Positions 36,260-62,617 of a DNA stretch of 64,000 nt are shown piece after piece. The first letter of the stretch is position 1. The number at the start of each line of letters is the position of its first letter. The translations under genes and the position numbers were made by a program. The notes under the pieces are model-generated. The model did not search any database and had not been told where the DNA came from. It was given only the letters and a program-made list of their open reading frames with translations. Source of the stretch: Klebsiella pneumoniae (GTDB lineage: Bacteria; Desulfobacterota; Binatia; UBA12015); assembly GCA_945872365.1 (NCBI GenBank), contig CAMBZJ010000002.1, positions 62,001 through 126,000 on the forward strand, in the 5' to 3' direction.

Positions 36260-39200
36260 TCAGCCCCCGGTACCGCCCGCCTCGGGACTCTCGCCCGCGA
36301 GGCGCAGTCCGACCGGCAGCGACTCGGAGAGCACCAGCGCCTGCTCGCGCACGTCGAGGGCAAGACGCTCGCGCAGAAGGCGCGCGAACTTGCGGGTCTC
36401 GGGAGTCGCCTCGAGCCGCGCCGCGAGGTGCTCGCGAAGTTCGGGTGAGAGATCGCGGACGCGGTCGCCGGTCAGACGCGCCGCCTGGGCGATCGCTAGG
36501 GCGGCGACCGTCGGCTTCTCCCACGCGATCCCGCCGAGACTTTCCATCCAAATCGCAATCGCTTGCGGGTCGACGACGGTGTTCGCCGGACCGAAGACCG
36601 GCGCACGCGCCGCGAGCCGGCCGAACGACCACCAGTCGGCGTCGCCGCCCTTCCCGGCGACCAGCCGTGGCGCGAGGACGCGCAGCATCTCGAGCTTCGT
36701 CCCGGCAGCGACCCGCTCGAGCGCACCCGCCACCTGCCACATCTCGCGCATCTCCTGAGCCCCGCCCTTCCAGCGGCTCGGCCTCGCCTTCTTCTGCGCC
36801 TCGGGCAGGATCACCGGCCGGATCTCCTGGTACAGGCCCTGCTGCTGCTGGCGCGTGAGCCCGCCCGCGACCCGCTTCCAGAGCGTCCACCACTCGGCCC
36901 GCCCCTGGGTCGCGCCCGGATGCGCGAGTCCGCGCTCGAAGATGCGCCAGAGTTGCTCCATCCGCCAGGGGTCGCGCGCCTCGCCCGAACCGGGGCGGAG
37001 CAGGAATCCCGCGAGGTTCAGCCAGCGCGCCTCGTGGGCCGGCGTGCGGGCGCGACCGCTCTCGAGCGAGAGGAGCGCATCCCACAGGTCGCGGATGCAG
37101 GCAAGCGGCCAGGACTCCTTGCCCGCATCGAGGATGTCCTCCAGTTCCCGGGTGAGGCGCATCGGGTCGACGCCACCCGCCGCGCCCGCGAAACACGCCT
37201 CGATCCGCTCCCGCGCGGCGGCGAGTCGCTCGGGTGCGACCACGATCTCCCCTACCGCGGCGGCCGCCGCGGGTTCGTCCGCGGGGCTGCCCTCCTCGCC
37301 CGCCGCGGCGTCGCGAACACCGGGATGCGGCGCGCCAGCCCCGACCGGCGCGCCCTGGCCCGCCATCGTCCCACCGGCCGGGAGCGCGGCGCGCAGGTCG
37401 AAGCTCATGCGCCAACGGTGGTCGGTCGTGCGCGACTCGCACCAGAGTTCGAGAACCCCGGTCTCCGTGAGGTGCGAGCGCAGGTGTACCGCGACCGGCC
37501 GCGCCTGCAGCGATCGCCCGTAACGCAGCACCGTCGCGATCGGCGGCAACTCGACCAGAGTCGCGGGATCCGCCTCGACGATCGCGCCACCGGGCTCGCC
37601 GACACGCAGCGTCGAGGCATAGATCGGAAAGCGCACCGGGGCGTTGGCGAGCACCTCGAATTCCGGTGTCGCGATCTCGATCGACTCGCCCTCCTCCATG
37701 CCGCGTGGTGCGACGCAGAGCACGCGGCGTCCGGCCGGGCCCCCGACCGTCGCACCGGCTCCGACGGTCGCCCCCCCGGCGCCGCCACGGCCCGCGAGAC
37801 CGACGTAATACGAGCGTGCCGCGCCGCCGCCGATGCGCACGCCGATGCCGCGCAGCGCGAGCCCGTAGGCCGCCGCCCCGCGGGCGACCGCGAAATCGAG
37901 GTCGGTGCCGGCGAGCTCGACGGGTCGCTTGCCGCACCAGTCGGCGAGTGCGTCGAGGATGCGGTCGCGCACAGCGGCCGGCTTGAGGGCGCCGCCGTTG
38001 AAGAGCACCGCGTCGGGCGCGACCAGTCCACCGGCGATCGGCGGCAGCGGCCGATCCCCGGCCTCCGCGCCGGGCGCCTCGCCCGCACCGCGCGACGATT
38101 CCTCCTCGGCGAGACGTCGCGCCGCGCGCGCGAGGAATTCCGCGAGGTGCCGCGTGATCTCCGGGTCACTCGCGAAGGGCAGGCCGAACTCGGCGAGCGC
38201 GAGACCGGCATCACCGCGCGGACGCGCCCCCGCCTCGACGAGCGGGAAGAAGCCGTCGCGCACCACCGCGAGCGCCTCCTCGGCGGTGATCGCATCGGCG
38301 ACCGCGCCGGCCACGACCCCGCGACCGCGACCGGCGAGCGAGATCGCGACCTGCTCCGGTGCGCCGACCCCGAGCAGCCTCTCCTTGGCGTCGCGGCACT
38401 GGTCCACCAGTTGCTGCCAACGCGCCGCATCGAGCGAGGAGGCAGCCGAGCGTCGCTCCGCGACCCGGCGCGCGAGCGCGATGTCCATGTTGTCGCCGCC
38501 GAGCAGCAGGTGGTCGCCGACGGCGACCCGCTCCAGGGAGAGCCCGCCGGCAGCGCGTCGCACCGCGACCAGCGAGAAGTCGGTCGTCCCGCCGCCGACG
38601 TCCACGACGAGCACGAAGCGCACGCTGTCGAGAAGGCTGCGCCAGTCCTCGTGTGCCGAGATCCAGGCGTAGATCGCCGCCTGCGGCTCCTCGAGCAGGC
38701 GCAGGGAGCCAAGCCCGGCGTCGGCCGCGGCCCGCACCGTGAGTTCGCGTGCGACCTCGTCGAACGACGCCGGCACCGTGAGGACCACTTCCTGTTGCGC
38801 GAGCGGGTCGTCGGGGTGAGCCGCGTCCCATGCGTCGCGCAGGTGCTCGATGATGCGGGCCGACGCAGCGACCGGCGAGAGCCGCGGTGCGTCGGCCGCC
38901 CCGCCCCAGGGCAGGATCGCCGCCGTGCGATCCACCCCGCCATGGCACAACCACGACTTGGCTGACGTGACGAGACGACCGGCCACGCGCGCGCCGAGAC
39001 GGCGGGCGTGACCGCCGACCGCGAAGCGTTCGTCGGCGCGCCATGGAAGTGCCAGGCTGCCAGCGGCGACGTCGTGCTCGCCGGCCAGGTAGATGGCCGA
39101 GGCGAGGGCGTCGCACTCGCGAACCTCGGCGTCGGCGACGAGCTGCGGGATCGGGACCGGCCAGACGGTGTGGCCTCGGGCGGGCTCCGCAGCCGCGACG

Positions 39201-39268
39201 GCGGAATTCGTCGTGCCGAGGTCGATCCCGACCGTGTAGCGCGCGCGAACGCGACGCGGCTCGCTCAT
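36260..39268 (-). CDS. large Hsp70-family protein (second Hsp70 of operon)
   Basis: 1002 residues from ATG 39268, overlapping the stop of the upstream Hsp70 as ATGA. The Hsp70 ATPase signatures are YTVGIDLGTTNSAV, VLVVDVGGGTTDFSLV and VLFNGGALKPAAVRDRI. Also AKSWLCHGGVDRTAAILPW and LLLGGDNMDIALA are shared with the first Hsp70. No DnaK-type peptide-binding domain or EEVD tail is seen. Instead the last about 370 residues form a helical domain (EARWLNLAGFLLRPGSGEA, RAEWWTLWKRVAGGL), matching the DUF3731-type C-terminus of this subgroup. Function unknown. The operon has no DnaJ or GrpE. Confidence 0.88.
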   Translation of the reverse strand: MSEPRRVRARYTVGIDLGTTNSAVAAAEPARGHTVWPVPIPQLVADAEVRECDALASAIYLAGEHDVAAGSLALPWRADERFAVGGHARRLGARVAGRLVTSAKSWLCHGGVDRTAAILPWGGAADAPRLSPVAASARIIEHLRDAWDAAHPDDPLAQQEVVLTVPASFDEVARELTVRAAADAGLGSLRLLEEPQAAIYAWISAHEDWRSLLDSVRFVLVVDVGGGTTDFSLVAVRRAAGGLSLERVAVGDHLLLGGDNMDIALARRVAERRSAASSLDAARWQQLVDQCRDAKERLLGVGAPEQVAISLAGRGRGVVAGAVADAITAEEALAVVRDGFFPLVEAGARPRGDAGLALAEFGLPFASDPEITRHLAEFLARAARRLAEEESSRGAGEAPGAEAGDRPLPPIAGGLVAPDAVLFNGGALKPAAVRDRILDALADWCGKRPVELAGTDLDFAVARGAAAYGLALRGIGVRIGGGAARSYYVGLAGRGGAGGATVGAGATVGGPAGRRVLCVAPRGMEEGESIEIATPEFEVLANAPVRFPIYASTLRVGEPGGAIVEADPATLVELPPIATVLRYGRSLQARPVAVHLRSHLTETGVLELWCESRTTDHRWRMSFDLRAALPAGGTMAGQGAPVGAGAPHPGVRDAAAGEEGSPADEPAAAAAVGEIVVAPERLAAARERIEACFAGAAGGVDPMRLTRELEDILDAGKESWPLACIRDLWDALLSLESGRARTPAHEARWLNLAGFLLRPGSGEARDPWRMEQLWRIFERGLAHPGATQGRAEWWTLWKRVAGGLTRQQQQGLYQEIRPVILPEAQKKARPSRWKGGAQEMREMWQVAGALERVAAGTKLEMLRVLAPRLVAGKGGDADWWSFGRLAARAPVFGPANTVVDPQAIAIWMESLGGIAWEKPTVAALAIAQAARLTGDRVRDLSPELREHLAARLEATPETRKFARLLRERLALDVREQALVLSESLPVGLRLAGESPEAGGTGG

Positions 39269-41205
39269 GCGCGCGCCCCCTCGCGAACGTTGAACTCGAG
39301 GCGCCAGCGATCGCCTTCGCCCGGCGGCGCGAACCACAGCTCGAGAGTTCCGATCTCGGTCACATGCGCGGCGAGTCGCACCGGCACGCGAGCAGCCGGG
39401 GCGGTCGAGGCGGCGACAGCCGGTGCGCCGCCGCCGACCGCGGCAGCCCCCGCATCCGCGCCGAGTTCCACCCGCAGCGGGGCGAGTTCGTCGAGCTCGC
39501 CGGTCTCCCACTCGTCGAGTACGTCGCCCATGCGGTCCTCGCGCCGGGTCGACGACGCGAAGAACCGGAAGGTCGCGCCTTGCCCGACCAGCAGCCCGAA
39601 TTCTGCGCCGGGTACCGGGAGACGGCTCCCCTCCTCCACGCCGAACGGAACGACGCACAGGGCCTTGATCGGCGGCGGGTAGCCGGGCACGGCGGGCATC
39701 GCGCTCGCGACCCCGACGTAATAGGAGCGCGCCGTACCGCCGCGGATGCGCACCCCACGGCCGCGCCGCGAGAGTCCGAAGTAGGCGGCTCCGCGCGCGA
39801 CCGCGTGCTCGAGATCGACCCCCTCGAGCACGCGCGGGGGCTCGGCTCCAGCCTCGTTGCTCCAGCGGCCCAGGATCCCGGCGACCCGGTCGCGAAGCCG
39901 GGCCGCGCGCATGACGCCGCCGTTGAAGAGGATCACCGACGGAAGCGCTGCAACCGCATCGCGAGCCGGTGCGGGAACCGCCGGTGCCCCGCCCCCACCT
40001 GCCGCATCGACCTGCGCTGCGAGAAAGCTCGCGAGGTGGCGCGTCACCGCAGGGTCGCTCGCATAGGGAAGGCCGATCTCGGAGAGACCCGCCGCGCGAT
40101 CCACGGTCGCGCGCGCATCCCCGCCGACCTCGGGAAAGAAGCCGTCGAGCAGAATGCGCTCGAGGTCGGTACGCGCGAGGTCGGTCTTGATCGTGCCGCC
40201 GATGAGCTTGCGGCCGCGCCCGAGCACGACGAGCGGAACCGACTCGGGCGGCGTCGCCGAGAGCAGGGCTTCCTTGGCTTCGCGGCACGAGAGCACGAGC
40301 CCGCGCAACTTCCAGGCGTCGATCCGGGTACCCGCCCCGGCGAGCCGCTCGCGGACGTGGAGGGCGAGCGCCAGGTCCATGTTGTCGCCGCCGAGAAGCA
40401 GGTGGTCGCCCACCGCGACGCGGCGCAGTGCCAGTTGCCCGCGCTCGTCCTCGACGGTGACGAGGCTCAGGTCGGTCGTCCCGCCGCCGAGATCGCACAC
40501 CAGCACCAGGTCGCCGGCGCGCACCTGCTCGCGCCACTTGTCGCCGCCTGCCTCGACCCAGGCGTAGACGGCGGCCTGCGGCTCCTCGAGCAGGTGGACG
40601 CGGTCGAGACCCGCTTCCGCGGCGGCCAGGCGCGTGAGTTCGCGCGCGGCAGCGTCGAAGGACGCGGGCACCGTGAGGTAGACGTCCTGCTCCTCGAGCC
40701 GCGCGCCCGGATCGTCGACCGCGTGGGCATGGTTCCATGCGTCGCGGAGGTGGGACAGGTAGGCCGCCGACGCCGCGACCGGCGAGACCCGTCGCACCTC
40801 GGTCTCCGGTGCCCCCGAGCCCGCAGCGACCCAGGGAAGGATCGGTGCGAGCCGGTCCACGCCAGGATGACAGAGCCAGGACTTGGCCGAGGTCACAACC
40901 TGGTCGGGCACCTCGGCCGCGCGACGTGAAGCATAGACGCCGGCGATCTCCCCCGCGCTCCCCCACGGCAAGGCCGACGCCGCCTCACCCGCCGCCGTCA
41001 GGTACAGGAAGGAAGGCAGCAAGGAGCGATCCTCGACGCTGCCCGACGCCGTCCACTGCGGAATCGCGAAGGTGCGTATGCGCGGAGCGGCGCCCGGGGC
41101 ACCCGGCTCCGCGGTGTCCACCCAGGCGAGCGCGCAATTCGTCGTCCCGAGGTCGATGCCGACGACGAAGCGGCTCGGCTCGCCCGGGGCCGCCGGATCG
41201 GTCAT
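39265..41205 (-). CDS. Hsp70-family protein (first Hsp70 of operon)
   Basis: 646 residues from ATG 41205, overlapping the DUF2760 stop as ATGA. The ATPase motifs are FVVGIDLGTTNCALAW, LVCDLGGGTTDLSLVTVE and ILFNGGVMRAARLRDRV. AKSWLCHPGVDRLAPILPW and LLLGGDNMDLALALHVRE are nearly the same as in the second Hsp70, so the two arose by duplication. About 120 residues of a beta-rich C-terminal part (RVPVRLAAHVTEIGTLELWF) follow the ATPase. Helical lid absent. Probably acts with the second Hsp70. Confidence 0.9.
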   Translation of the reverse strand: MTDPAAPGEPSRFVVGIDLGTTNCALAWVDTAEPGAPGAAPRIRTFAIPQWTASGSVEDRSLLPSFLYLTAAGEAASALPWGSAGEIAGVYASRRAAEVPDQVVTSAKSWLCHPGVDRLAPILPWVAAGSGAPETEVRRVSPVAASAAYLSHLRDAWNHAHAVDDPGARLEEQDVYLTVPASFDAAARELTRLAAAEAGLDRVHLLEEPQAAVYAWVEAGGDKWREQVRAGDLVLVCDLGGGTTDLSLVTVEDERGQLALRRVAVGDHLLLGGDNMDLALALHVRERLAGAGTRIDAWKLRGLVLSCREAKEALLSATPPESVPLVVLGRGRKLIGGTIKTDLARTDLERILLDGFFPEVGGDARATVDRAAGLSEIGLPYASDPAVTRHLASFLAAQVDAAGGGGAPAVPAPARDAVAALPSVILFNGGVMRAARLRDRVAGILGRWSNEAGAEPPRVLEGVDLEHAVARGAAYFGLSRRGRGVRIRGGTARSYYVGVASAMPAVPGYPPPIKALCVVPFGVEEGSRLPVPGAEFGLLVGQGATFRFFASSTRREDRMGDVLDEWETGELDELAPLRVELGADAGAAAVGGGAPAVAASTAPAARVPVRLAAHVTEIGTLELWFAPPGEGDRWRLEFNVREGARA

Positions 41206-42011
41206 CCGACCTCGACCTCCGCCGGCATCAGTACCGCCGGATCGCTGCCGGAGGATGGCTGCGGCAGGCGCGCCGCACGGGCACGCCAGCCGCCGTGGCG
41301 AAGGACGCCGCGGAAGGGCGGCTCCCCCGACGGACGGCCCGTGATGCGGATCCGCCCAGGGTCGAAGCCAGCCGGAACCTCGACCGTGTCGCCATCCTCG
41401 CCGGCGAGGATCGGCTCGAGGTCGAGACGCTCGGCGAGTGCCTTGCGCAGCGAGGCATGGATGCCCCGGACCGCGCTGCCGACCTGTTCGTCGGAGTACC
41501 CGGCGATGTCCTCGTGTACGAAGTCGAGCAGCCTGGCCTCCTCCTGGAGTGCGGCGAGCAGCCGCAGGCCGATCTCCGGCGAGGGTGGAGGCGGCGGGGC
41601 GACGACCGGCTTGCGCTTCTTCTCCGCGGCAGACGCCGCGGACTTCGCAGCGGCCGCGCGCTCCTCGCGCTCGGTCGTCTCCTCGATGGCCAAAGGGTCG
41701 GGCGTCGGGGCGGATGCGTCCGCAAGTATGGCTGCCACGCGACGGCGCGCGGCGAGCCCCAGGACGAGTGCCGCGAGCAGGGATCCGAGCACCGGGATCA
41801 GCAGCCACGGCAGGGCCCCGCCTTCCATCGCGCGACGGACCGCCGCGGCGACGTCCCCGGTGCGCAGGAGTTCGAGCGCATCCCGCGCCGCCGGGTCGAC
41901 AGCGCCGGTCCCGAGTTGCCAGACCGACCACCCATTGGCGACGGCGAGCAGCAGCAGGAGAAGACTCGAGAGTGCGGCTCCGGAGCCGCGGCGCGGGGCT
42001 TGGTCGCTCAT
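41202..42011 (-). CDS. DUF2760 membrane-associated protein
   Basis: 269 residues from ATG 42011. Two hydrophobic segments (LSSLLLLLLAVANGWSVW near the N-terminus; LPWLLIPVLGSLLAALVLGL about residue 70-90) are followed by a charged, Pro-rich linker. The DUF2760 core is ARLLDFVHEDIAGYSDEQVG with AVRGIHASLRKALAE. DUF2760 genes are found next to Hsp70 pairs in many proteobacteria, as here. It may tether the Hsp70s to the membrane. This is inference from gene order. First gene of the three-gene operon. Confidence 0.88.
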   Translation of the reverse strand: MSDQAPRRGSGAALSSLLLLLLAVANGWSVWQLGTGAVDPAARDALELLRTGDVAAAVRRAMEGGALPWLLIPVLGSLLAALVLGLAARRRVAAILADASAPTPDPLAIEETTEREERAAAAKSAASAAEKKRKPVVAPPPPPSPEIGLRLLAALQEEARLLDFVHEDIAGYSDEQVGSAVRGIHASLRKALAERLDLEPILAGEDGDTVEVPAGFDPGRIRITGRPSGEPPFRGVLRHGGWRARAARLPQPSSGSDPAVLMPAEVEVG

Positions 42012-42134: not shown

Positions 42135-42422
42135 ATGTCGGTTTCCCTGAAAGACGTGCGGCACATTGCCCTGCTGGCCCGCCTCGGCCTCGCCCCGGAA
42201 GAAGAGGAAGCGCTGCGGTGCGACCTCGACTCGATCCTCGGCTACGTGGCCGCGCTCGACGCGCTCGACACCTCGGGCGTCGAGCCGACCGCGCACGTCG
42301 TGGATCTGCCGAGCCCGCTTCGCGATGACCGCGTGACCAATCCGGAGGCCGCCGAAGCCATGGTCGAGAACGCCCCCGACCGGGACCGCACCTTTCTTCG
42401 GGTGCCCAAGATCATCGAGTGA
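42135..42422 (+). CDS. gatC: aspartyl/glutamyl-tRNA amidotransferase subunit C
   Basis: 95 residues. It matches Gat[40 protein letters not shown] and [13 protein letters not shown]. GatC wraps GatA and stabilises the GatCAB amidotransferase that makes Gln-tRNA-Gln or Asn-tRNA-Asn from misacylated tRNAs. It heads the gatC-gatA-gatB cluster, with 88 bp to gatA. Divergent from the DUF2760 operon. Confidence 0.95.
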
Positions 42423-42510: not shown

Positions 42511-44010
42511 ATGAATCCAAGTGAACCCACGACCTGGACGATCGCCGAGGCCCGTGCCGCGCTCGACGCGGGCTCGACAAACGCCGTCGACCTGGCGCGC
42601 GCCTTCCTCGACCGCGCGGCCGCGGTCGAACCGGCCGTGCACGCACTCCTCGAACGCACGACGAACCGTGCACTCGCCGATGCGCGGGCGGCCGACGAGC
42701 GACGCGCCCGCGGCGAGCGCGGCCCGATGCTCGGAATCCCGGTCGTCCTGAAGGACATCTTCGCGACCCGCGGCATCCCGACGACCTGCGGCTCGCGCAT
42801 CCTCGAAGGCTTCGTCCCGCCCTACGATGCCGACGCCGTGGAGCGGCTGTCGCGCGCCGGCGCGGTGCTGGTCGGCAAGGCGAACCTGGACGAATTCGCG
42901 ATGGGCTCGTCCACCGAGAACTCGGCCTTCGGGCCGACGCTGAACCCCTGGGACCTCGGGCGTGTCGCCGGCGGCTCCTCGGGCGGCTCGGCCGCCGCCG
43001 TCGCCGCCGGCGAGTGCCTGGCGTCGCTCGGGACCGACACCGGCGGCTCGATCCGGCTTCCGGCGAGTTACTGCGGCGTCTGCGGCATGAAGCCGACCTA
43101 CGGGCGGGTGTCGCGCTACGGGGTGATCGCCTACGCGTCCTCGCTCGACCAGGTCGGCCCTTTCGCCCGCAGCGTGGCCGACCTCGCCGACGTACTCGGC
43201 GTGATCGCGGGCCACGACCCGCGCGACTCCACGTCGGTGCCGCGGCCGGTGCCCGATTATGCAGCGGCACTCGACGGCAACGTGCGCGGGCTGCGCATCG
43301 GCGTCCCGCGCGAGTACTTCGTCGAGGGCATGTCACCCGAGGTAGAGGCAGCCGTCCGCGCGGCGATCGAACGGCTGCGCGAACTCGGCGCCACCGTGGT
43401 CGAGATCGGGTTGCCGCACACCCGCTACGCGGTCGCGACCTACTACCTGATCGCACCCGCCGAGGCGTCCTCGAACCTGGCGCGTTACGACGGCGTGCGC
43501 TTCGGACTGCGCAGGGCGGCGCGCGACGCGAATCTCCTCGACATGTACCGCAAGACGCGCGACGCGGGCTTCGGCCCGGAGGTGAAGCGGCGCATCCTGC
43601 TTGGCACCTATGCGCTGTCGGCCGGCTACTACGACGCATTCTACCTGAAGGCCCAGAAAGCCCGGACGCTGATCCGCGAGGACTTCACGAAGGCGTTCGC
43701 CGAGTGCGATGTGATCGCGACCCCGACCGCGCCGACGGTCGCCTTCGGACTCGGCGAGAAGACCGCCGACCCGTTGCAGATGTACCTCTCCGACGTGCTG
43801 ACGATCTCGGTGAACCTGGCCGGACTGCCGGCCCTCGCCCTACCCTGCGGCTTCGACGGTGCGGGTCTGCCGATCGGGCTGCAACTGATCGCGCCCGCCT
43901 TCGCCGAGGAGGTGACGTTGCGGGTCGGCGACGCCTACCAGCGCGCCACCGACTGGCATGCGCGCCGGCCGCTCACGCGCGAGGCGCTTGGGAAGGGAGA
44001 CGCCAGATGA
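42511..44010 (+). CDS. gatA: Asp-tRNA(Asn)/Glu-tRNA(Gln) amidotransferase subunit A
   Basis: 499 residues. The amidase Ser-cisSer-Lys triad can be placed at K81 ([12 protein letters not shown]), S156 ([12 protein letters not shown]) and S180 ([12 protein letters not shown]), matching K79, S154 and S178 of the Staphylococcus enzyme. [14 protein letters not shown] follows. It releases ammonia from glutamine for the amidation done in GatB. Length is normal. The stop overlaps the gatB start as ATGA. Confidence 0.97.
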
Positions 44011-45470
44011 GCGCAACGCCCGACTACGGCGACTGGGAACCGGTCATCGGACTCGAGGTCCACGCCCAGATGCTGACCGAGTCGAAGCTCTTCTGCGGCT
44101 GTTCGGCGAGTTTCGGCGCCCCGCCCAACGCGCATACCTGCCCGGTGTGCATGGGCATGCCGGGCGTGCTCCCGGTCCTCAATCGCCGCGCCGTCGAGTT
44201 CGCGACGAAGACCGCCCTGGCGACCGGCTGCGAGATCCCACCGGTCGCGCGATGGGCCCGCAAGAACTACTTCTACCCGGACCTGCCCAAGGGCTACCAG
44301 GTCAGCATGTACGAGGAACCGCTCGCGGTCCGCGGCGCGATCGAGATCGAAACGCCCGACGGGACACGCCGCATCCGGCTCACCCGCATCCACATGGAGG
44401 AGGACGCCGGCAAGAGCGTCCACGACGCGCACGACGCCCACTCGCTGGTCGACCTGAACCGGGCCGGCGTACCGCTCATGGAGATCGTGAGCGAACCCGA
44501 CATCGCGTCGGCTGCGGACGCCGCCGCCTATCTGCGCGCGCTGCACACGATCCTCCAGTACCTCGCCGTCTGCGACGGCAACATGGAGGAAGGCAGCATG
44601 CGCTGCGACGCCAACGTCTCGATCCGGCGGCGCGGAGCGACGGAACTCGGCACGCGCACCGAGATCAAGAACATGAACTCCTTCCGCAGCGTCGAGCGCG
44701 CGATCGACACCGAGGTCCGACGCCAGATCGAGGTGATGGAGAGCGGCGGCCGGATCGTGCAGGAGACCCGGCTCTGGGACGCCGACCGCGCCCAGACCTT
44801 CCCGATGCGATCGAAGGAGGGGGCCCACGACTATCGCTACTTCCCGGAACCCGACCTGCTGCCCTTGGTCGCCGACCCGGCGTGGATCGAGTCGGTACGG
44901 GCGAGCCTGCCCGAGTTGCCGGTCGCGCGGCGCAACCGCTTCGTGCGCGATCACGGGATCCCGGTCTACGACGCCGAGGTGCTGACGGCACGGCGCGACG
45001 TCGCCGACTACTTCGAGGCGGCGGTCGCGGCCCACAGCAACCCGAAGGCGCTCTCGAACTGGATCATGGGCGACATCCTGCGGCTCGTACGCGAGCGCAA
45101 GCTCGACGACTCGTTCGTCATCACCGACTGGCCGGTCGCTCCCGGTGCGCTCGCGAGACTGGTCGCGCTCATCGACGACGACACGATCAGCGGCAAAATC
45201 GCGAAGGCCGTCTTCGAGGAGATGGTCGCCAGCGGCGGGGAGCCCGCGGCAATCGTCGAGAAGAAGGGCCTGAAGCAGGTCACCGACACCGGGGCGATCG
45301 AGACCGCGATCGACGCGGTGCTCGCGGCAAGCCCCGACAAGGTCGCCGAGTATCGCTCAGGCAAGGACAAGCTGTTCGGTTTCTTCGTCGGACAGGTGAT
45401 GAAAGCGACCGAGGGCAAGGCGAATCCCCAGGCGGTGAACGACCTGCTGCGCGCGAAACTCGCGGGCTGA
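44007..45470 (+). CDS. gatB: Asp-tRNA(Asn)/Glu-tRNA(Gln) amidotransferase subunit B
   Basis: 487 residues from ATG 44007, with GGGAAGGGAG upstream. The motifs are [65 protein letters not shown] and the C-terminal YqeY-like domain ([13 protein letters not shown]). The Cys residues (CGC, CPVC) belong to the family zinc site. GatB activates the tRNA-bound Asp or Glu with ATP. Which tRNA is used depends on the synthetases, which are outside the window. Confidence 0.97.
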
Positions 45471-61579: not shown

Positions 61580-62617
61580 GTGCTGGCCTGCCTGCTCGTG
61601 ATCGTGATCCATTCTCCAATGATCCGAAATGGTCAAGGAAGCTTCTGGTTGTCGGCATTCAACTATCTCGCATCGCCCTGCATCGGACTGTTCTTCATGA
61701 TCTCGGGGGCGACTCTTCTCCCCATTCGCGTGAGCACCAGGAGCTTTTTGCGATCTCGCTTCGGCCGCATCGTCCCACCGCTGGTCACATGGTCGATCCT
61801 CTACCTCGGGGTCGCCGTCCTGTACGCCGAGACGTCACCGGGGGACGCCCTTGCCGCAGCCCTTCGGATTCCTTTTGCCGCAGTGGGTAACGGCGCCTTC
61901 TGGTTCCTCTACTCGCTGCTCGGACTCTACCTCTTCCTGCCGTTCCTATCGCCCTGGATCGCAGGTGCGACGCCAGCAATGCTGCGACTATACCTCGGGG
62001 CCTGGGTCCTTGCGCTCGGCGTTCCCTATGTCGACGCACTCCTCCCTGGCGTCTCCCAGGCATTGGCGACACCGGATGGACTGCTCGCGAACTTCCAGAG
62101 CTATGCGGGATACGCGGTTGCCGGCTTTTACCTGCGCAAGTATCCGCCCGATCACGCAACCCGCCTTCTTACACCACGTCGCGCCATACCATTCACTCTC
62201 GTCTCGGTCGTGATCCCGGTACTATTCTACCTCGGCGTCTTTCGTGGGCTCGAGAACAGAGTCCTTTACGGCTACCTGACCGCCAATGTTGCACTGCTGG
62301 CAGTTGGCTTGTTTCGCATCATGCAACGCGGGGCACCACACCTTGTTCAGTGGAAGACCCCGCTTCAACAAGTGGGAGCGGACACGTTCGGCATCTACCT
62401 CGTACACCTGATGATTCTCCGGCGCGTCGTTCAACCGATCGTCATCGCTCACGGTCCGGAGTTTCCGCTGCTCCAGATTCCAGCCACCGCCGCAGCGACC
62501 TTCCTGCTGTCCCTTTGCCTCGTCGAGCTGATCCGTATGCTCCCCGGGTTCCTGCCCTATCTGCTGCTGGGCACGGACGAGTCGAGTCATCCCGCTGGCA
62601 CTTTCGGCGGAGGTTGA
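61580..62617 (+). CDS. acyltransferase-3 family membrane protein, 5' end appears frameshifted
   Basis: 345 residues are visible from GTG 61580, but the family start (EPWLDAVRVLACLLVIVIHS) is coded in the same frame upstream with no ATG, GTG or TTG. An ATG at 61524, overlapping the previous stop, is one frame off. A single missing base in CCCCGGGG (61530-61537) would join it to the correct frame. So the gene is either broken or affected by a sequencing error. The rest is intact, about ten transmembrane helices (CIGLFFMISGATLLP, FLYSLLGLYLFLPFLSPW). It probably acylates surface glycans. Confidence 0.8.
   Translation: MLACLLVIVIHSPMIRNGQGSFWLSAFNYLASPCIGLFFMISGATLLPIRVSTRSFLRSRFGRIVPPLVTWSILYLGVAVLYAETSPGDALAAALRIPFAAVGNGAFWFLYSLLGLYLFLPFLSPWIAGATPAMLRLYLGAWVLALGVPYVDALLPGVSQALATPDGLLANFQSYAGYAVAGFYLRKYPPDHATRLLTPRRAIPFTLVSVVIPVLFYLGVFRGLENRVLYGYLTANVALLAVGLFRIMQRGAPHLVQWKTPLQQVGADTFGIYLVHLMILRRVVQPIVIAHGPEFPLLQIPATAAATFLLSLCLVELIRMLPGFLPYLLLGTDESSHPAGTFGGG

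Follow-up and report, generated by a model that had tools for sequence, protein, structure and literature searches.

The stretch of DNA analysed here, referred to as the window, comprises 64,000 nucleotides (positions 62,001 to 126,000) of contig CAMBZJ010000002.1 in assembly GCA_945872365.1, filed under Klebsiella pneumoniae and placed by GTDB in the Desulfobacterota (Binatia; UBA12015). It contains a compact cassette of three genes on the minus strand, to which all feature coordinates of the cassette given below refer. The first gene (41202..42011) encodes a 269-amino-acid (aa) DUF2760 protein (PF10816, E 9.3e-43) with an N-terminal membrane anchor, an Ala/Pro linker, and a C-terminal head predicted to be GrpE-like. 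It is followed by two genes for Hsp70 proteins: HspA, or Hsp70-A (39265..41205; 646 aa; PF00012, E 6e-18), is lidless, and HspB, or Hsp70-B (36260..39268; 1002 aa; PF00012, E 6e-21), carries in addition a DUF3731 domain (PF12531, E 3.2e-75). Both junctions are ATGA overlaps of 4 base pairs (bp), at 41202..41205 between DUF2760 and HspA and at 39265..39268 between HspA and HspB, and a check of the sequence bore out the gene coordinates and overlaps given in a preliminary description of the locus.

An HspB alignment was used to scan GTDB species genomes, which yielded 80 loci; in these, the partner genes were then sought with profiles built from relatives. DUF2760, HspA, and HspB occur together, in the same order and on the same strand, at 55 of the 80; the neighbourhood, whose conservation in other genomes had been proposed as a check, is therefore conserved. 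Full trios are found in Desulfobacterota (Desulfobacteraceae), Myxococcota, Planctomycetes, Lentisphaerae, Acidobacteria, betaproteobacteria (Burkholderiales), and gammaproteobacteria (Vibrio). Smaller forms comprise DUF2760 with HspB only (four loci, including Desulfobacula and Acidobacteria), HspA with HspB only (five loci, in three of which HspA is cut by the contig start), and HspA alone (one locus); at six further loci, the contig is cut close upstream of HspB. With start codons chosen by script, a 4-bp overlap was scored at 30 of 55 DUF2760/HspA junctions and a 1-bp overlap at 8 more, and an overlap of 4 bp was scored at 13 of 60 homologous HspA/HspB junctions. Recurrence of the gene order at 55 of 80 loci, together with the overlap at 30 of 55 junctions, argues that the arrangement is not due to chance.

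An all-against-all comparison of flanking reading frames from the 80 loci revealed no further gene conserved beside the trio. In the window, GatC-like (42135-42422), GatA-like (42511-44010), and GatB-like (an in-frame part of 43014-45470) genes run divergently from the cassette, the first of them some 120 bp away from the start of DUF2760, and this adjacency is not conserved at other loci. Neither a CIRCE heat-shock operator nor any RNA family was found in searches of the window. A natural insertion of about 2.9 kb parts HspA from HspB in Rhodoferax sp. OV413 (L087, 7217-9889); its reading frames, named by eye from the sequence, resemble a ClpP protease, a sigma factor, and a DUF1016-type nuclease.

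The families also travel together at the level of whole genomes. Among 297 genomes of the same phylum, 43 of which were positive, 42 carry DUF2760, 40 carry DUF3731, and 39 carry both families (Fisher p 5e-44); among 58 closer relatives, the corresponding numbers are 32, 35, and 31 (p 5e-11). The genes lie about 250, 556, and 248 kb apart in three single-contig genomes (G213, G254, and G316, respectively), and thus the link between DUF2760 and DUF3731 is independent of adjacency. Neither family occurs in any of 14 well-known control genomes.

Complete trios are further carried as cargo on conjugative Bradyrhizobium plasmids (L187 and L189), in one case beside trb conjugation genes and in the other about 1 kb upstream of groES-groL; NCBI labels the encoded proteins just 'DUF2760 domain-containing' and 'Hsp70 family protein'. 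Plasmid pTs485 of Candidatus Thiodictyon syntrophicum (L190) carries DUF2760 and HspA without HspB, next to three other genes: one of the anti-phage-associated DUF1156 type, one for a phospholipase D-like anti-phage protein, and one for a TIR-domain protein. Such carriage on conjugative plasmids and such neighbours would suit a cassette that mainly serves a mobile element, by maintaining the plasmid or defending against phage, rather than a housekeeping chaperone. This explanation is, however, very improbable: most copies reside on chromosome-like contigs with unrelated neighbours, no conserved defence neighbours were seen across the 80 loci, and no PADLOC family matched above weak noise. Interpretation as a defence system was also rejected, the PADLOC matches being weak and ATPase-like and defence neighbours not being conserved. 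Phage records yielded no copies beyond distant HscA, and viral contigs yielded no relatives. Conserved gene order, co-occurrence, and plasmid cargo strongly support the dedicated Hsp70 machine that the preliminary description had suggested; the membrane linkage that it attached to this machine is supported for the present genome but is not universal.

HspA and HspB belong to the Hsp70 superfamily but, by the features tested, are not of the DnaK, HscA, or HscC types. The nearest NCBIfam models for their ATPase domains are HscA (85-100 bits) and DnaK, all far under their cut-offs, and neither NCBIfam nor PADLOC profile searches supplied a better name for any of the cassette proteins. Matches to MreB profiles were weak, at or below the cut-off, and a reading of the two proteins as MreB- or actin-like filament formers was rejected, a substrate-binding beta domain (SBD-beta) being predicted. 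The ATPase domains span residues about 10-480 of HspA (39766..41178) and about 9-475 of HspB (37844..39244; delimited by the model, superposition on DnaK, and invariant residues). In 58 HspA and 75 HspB sequences, the equivalents of DnaK D8, T11, K70, E171, D194, T199, and D201 never vary where they are present, and HspA retains all catalytic residues. In a FastTree phylogeny, all 58 HspA sequences form one clade (support 0.999), which implies that the two-paralogue state is old; rooting of this tree on DnaK is unreliable owing to the long outgroup branch. By these sequence comparisons, the two proteins are Hsp70 paralogues of ancient divergence whose ATPase sites are intact.

An old pair of unequal paralogues invites comparison with Hsp110-Hsp70 or with Ssz1 in the yeast ribosome-associated complex (RAC), and HspA and HspB might likewise form an asymmetric heterodimer, one member being regulatory and not a chaperone, with DUF2760 serving only as the anchor of the pair. 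The constant order of the two diverged genes, their ancient split, the restriction of DUF3731 to one of them, and the lidless state of HspA would all fit, and one yeast RAC structure (7x3k) appears among the structural matches, albeit at rank 48. Retention of all catalytic residues in both copies speaks against this reading, as does the existence of natural DUF2760 plus HspB forms (Desulfobacula, Acidobacteria) and a DUF2760 plus HspA form (the Thiodictyon plasmid). Since either Hsp70 occurs alone beside DUF2760, a heterodimer is not obligatory, and the heterodimer explanation as a whole appears quite improbable. The single-Hsp70 forms suggest that either protein can pair with DUF2760.

The domain that follows the ATPase domain was clarified by structure prediction. 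An AlphaFold model of HspB, built from 75 sequences (mean predicted local distance difference test score [pLDDT] 85; predicted template modelling score [pTM] 0.85), resolves into the ATPase domain, a beta domain at residues about 486-624 (37397..37813), a disordered linker (624-675), and the helical DUF3731 region (679-980). Among PDB entries, it most closely matches full-length DnaK and BiP captured in the docked, ATP-like state, with 459-472 residues aligned across positions 9-627; in the superposition on DnaK 2-506 (4b9q_D; Z 31.1), 459 residues are aligned as against about 350 for an ATPase domain alone. Because superposition on docked DnaK and BiP goes past the ATPase domain, the beta domain of HspB is predicted to be a divergent DnaK-type SBD-beta, with putative peptide binding. 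HspA holds a domain at residues about 491-640 (39286..39735) that profile comparison identifies as homologous to it (hhalign probability 100, E 5.3e-44), after which the protein ends. Both Hsp70s had previously been described as lacking a DnaK-type substrate domain; the HspB model, a structure prediction of the kind that had been named in advance as able to refute the proposal, and the homologous domain of HspA contradict this, although the domain is not an ordinary peptide-binding domain, as it lacks a lid and the VLLLD linker.

The canonical alpha-helical lid (SBD-alpha) is absent after the SBD-beta of both proteins: HspA terminates, and HspB continues into the disordered linker and then DUF3731. 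The hydrophobic VLLLD linker is replaced in HspA and HspB homologues by a conserved RIRGG/RIGGG-x-x-R-S-Y motif. DUF3731 occupies residues about 685-990 of HspB (36299..37216), in the lid position, and the long DUF3731-like helical end noted previously for the second Hsp70 is thereby confirmed, with the Pfam match on residues 743-990 and helices at high confidence over 679-980. Against PDB sequences, DUF3731 gave a marginal match to the repeat protein PF16 (E 0.003, with no significant stretch) and a match to FliG (E 0.18).

The surface that DnaK presents to J-proteins is also altered. DnaK residues R167, N170, and T173 have been implicated in J-protein contact (PMC4022485); the N170 equivalent is Glu in 133 of 133 proteins, and that of T173 is mostly Gln. 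At the R167 position, Thr is found in 42 of 58 HspA proteins and Arg in 33 of 75 HspB proteins. Since the N170 and T173 equivalents are changed, a canonical J-protein is unlikely to act on HspA or HspB in the usual way. No J-domain gene lies in the window; the three in this genome are on other contigs, one (C15) together with DnaK and an adjoining canonical GrpE, one (C7) with an HscA-like Hsp70, and one on C6. Ordinary DnaK-GrpE, J-proteins, and an HscA-like Hsp70 are thus encoded elsewhere, and the cassette constitutes an additional system.

In proteins of the DUF2760 family, a linker of low complexity connects a variable N terminus to a C-terminal domain that is conserved. In the window protein, hydropathy indicates a strong transmembrane-like segment at residues 70-88 (41748..41804; 2.49 over 19 residues; model helix 71-99) and a weak hydrophobic segment at residues 9-27 (41931..41987; 1.63 over 19 residues). 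It is one of 26 among 60 DUF2760 proteins with a clear transmembrane segment, and hence the earlier designation of DUF2760 as a membrane protein applies to this genome but not in general. Many of the other members open with a short hydrophobic or amphipathic stretch. In Vibrio and Photobacterium (L085, L090, L102, L103, L107, L108, and L112), anchor and head are joined by a repeated VEKIVEVEKPVEKIVEVEK linker, likely a rigid charged helix or spacer, in contrast to the Ala/Pro linker found elsewhere.

The C-terminal head was modelled by AlphaFold with a pLDDT of 92-97 in most blocks, falling to 87 and 71 around residues 241-260. It comprises a short helical part at residues 145-195 (41427..41579; helices 145-159, 161-166, 174-177, and 179-195) and a beta-wing-like domain of seven strands at residues 196-268 (41208..41426), which bears the consensus motifs FDA, HRGW, and PAEVE. 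Human GrpEL1 is the first-ranked Foldseek match (E 0.033, probability 0.85). With VIA-align, GrpE proteins occupy ranks 1-4 of the 541 aligned chains; they come from human mitochondria, from Geobacillus, and from a GrpE-DnaK integrative model, and have Z scores of 6.3, 6.3, 5.6, and 5.4 over 99-103 residues, with root-mean-square deviations of 5.0-5.5; unrelated chains follow at Z 4.6 and under, and Thermus GrpE takes rank 7. The GrpE alignment begins at residue 144-147, and superposition on 4ani gives 25% identity over 103 residues. Element order and C-terminal position agree with those of GrpE, and the motifs FDP/FDA, GY/GW, and PAxV/PAEV run in the same order in GrpE and DUF2760, which is merely suggestive. 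As GrpE accounts for 7 of 177,635 distinct PDB sequences, its ranking first for a gene overlap-coupled to a pair of Hsp70 genes is not easily explained by chance.

HspA and HspB retain the region of Hsp70 corresponding to the GrpE-signature loop, which HscA and HscC have lost (PMC8215388), with strong conservation of a GxG..IGG sequence. In known complexes, the GrpE stalk touches the Hsp70 linker and one beta-wing touches the lid (PMC11685456, PMC12987570); stalk, linker motif, and lid are all missing here, and thus both sides appear to have changed in a matching way. The predicted fold of DUF2760 is probably GrpE-like, and the protein would work like GrpE if the prediction holds, yet by sequence it does not belong to the GrpE family. 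The preliminary description had stated that neither DnaJ nor GrpE is present: no J-protein gene is indeed nearby, nor is a canonical GrpE, but at the level of fold and, by extension, function, the statement on GrpE is probably wrong.

Taken together, the three genes probably specify a specialised Hsp70 machine that is complete in itself, in which a divergent, GrpE-like protein (anchored in the membrane in this genome) acts as exchange factor and to which no J-protein is dedicated. Several observations weigh against this. No sequence link joins DUF2760 to GrpE, as hhalign returned a probability of 0.1-0.2% and none of 60 DUF2760 members matched the GrpE profile PF01025, and sequence homology between the two was rejected. 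A block-shuffle profile test gave a z of about 3 with lenient gap costs and no signal with strict gaps, a commonly occurring arrangement can produce VIA-align Z scores near 6, and the DUF2760 model has a pTM of 0.47. The dimerising stalk of GrpE is absent, the model showing anchor helices and a linker instead, and 34 of the 60 homologues have no certain transmembrane segment. Finally, at 9 of the 80 loci (L049, L055, L068, L075, L093, L105, L109, L114, and L118), HspB stands without a detected DUF2760 or HspA although 3 kb or more of sequence is available upstream of it; these genomes may encode the partners at other sites.

The missing sequence similarity and the modest structural scores (Foldseek E 0.033, Z 6) equally leave room for DUF2760 as just a membrane tether or adaptor that resembles GrpE by chance, with nucleotide release being spontaneous as in HscA and HscC, which need no exchange factor (PMC8215388). 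Yet all four top-ranked chains are GrpE, rare as it is among PDB sequences, and the head matches GrpE in the order of its elements and in its C-terminal position. Conservation in DUF2760 is also highest in the head rather than in the anchor, some homologues keeping the head without a clear transmembrane anchor. A simple tether is thus unlikely.

Within the proposed machine, ATP-bound HspA and/or HspB, with the open SBD-beta docked, would take up a client close to the inner membrane and hydrolyse the nucleotide. The beta domain of DUF2760 would then insert between the ATPase lobes, expel ADP, and reset HspA/HspB at the membrane. DUF2760 would in effect be GrpE cut down to its functional head (short helices plus beta-wing), with the flexible linker and the N-terminal hydrophobic anchor, transmembrane in this genome, taking the place of the long stalk. 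DUF3731, at the lid position of HspB, may serve as lid, client platform, or regulator. From the altered contact residues and the hydrophobic segments, we infer that the cycle would run at the membrane with little or no canonical J-protein input. A more specific version, namely a membrane Hsp70 system with a tethered GrpE-type factor, two lidless Hsp70s, no canonical J-protein step, and DUF3731 replacing either the lid or J-protein stimulation, is offered tentatively, as a somewhat doubtful extension.

Clients may possibly include oxidatively damaged or envelope proteins. A hint comes from Myxococcus xanthus, in which six Hsp70 genes have been studied, among them MXAN_5323, encoding a 925-aa cd10170 protein (PMC8265645). 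Deletion of MXAN_5323 lowered sporulation and survival of H2O2, whereas growth at high or low temperature was unaffected; its expression is raised by H2O2 and during development, transcriptome and quantitative PCR data disagree with respect to heat shock, and the protein does not replace E. coli DnaK (PMC8265645). In a congeneric Myxococcus (L056), HspB likewise measures exactly 925 aa, and from this shared length and class, MXAN_5323 is probably an HspB orthologue; the main text of PMC8265645 names neither DUF2760 nor DUF3731. Its phenotypes fit a specialised non-essential chaperone. Deletions of the other four nonessential Hsp70 genes gave similar phenotypes (PMC8265645), however, and the phenotype is therefore weak evidence on specificity.

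Searches of the open-access literature found no paper naming DUF2760 or DUF3731. For these two Pfam domains of unknown function, testable roles can now be proposed: that of a divergent exchange factor for DUF2760, and replacement of the lid for DUF3731. Bacterial Hsp70 biology is framed around DnaK, HscA, and HscC. GrpE is evenly spread in the E. coli cell (reviewed in PMC8215388); a membrane-placed exchange factor for a specialised Hsp70 pair, distributed over many phyla and plasmids, would, if confirmed, be a distinct solution and would raise the question of whether Hsp70 can function without J-proteins.

Compared with known systems, the cassette shares with DnaK-DnaJ-GrpE an Hsp70 ATPase with docked SBD-beta and a partner of GrpE fold, both predicted, and would use the same ATP/ADP cycle. 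It differs in having two Hsp70s, no canonical lid, no VLLLD linker, and no J-protein gene, and DUF2760 differs from GrpE itself in lacking detectable GrpE sequence and the stalk and in being often membrane-anchored. E. coli HscC with DjlB/DjlC is likewise a second, specialised Hsp70 that a co-chaperone links to the membrane (PMC8215388); there, however, the protein at the membrane is a J-protein and the cycle does without an exchange factor, whereas the cassette has no J-protein gene and its membrane partner would itself act as exchange factor. HscA-HscB provides the closest NCBIfam relatives of the ATPase domains, but HscA possesses a lid and a dedicated J-protein, uses no exchange factor, and has the GrpE-signature loop deleted (PMC8215388), while the loop region is retained in the cassette proteins. 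Hsp110 and Ssz1-Zuo1 (RAC) offer the precedent of paired unequal Hsp70s, one of them lidless; in the cassette, by contrast, both Hsp70s keep their catalytic residues and each can occur singly with DUF2760.

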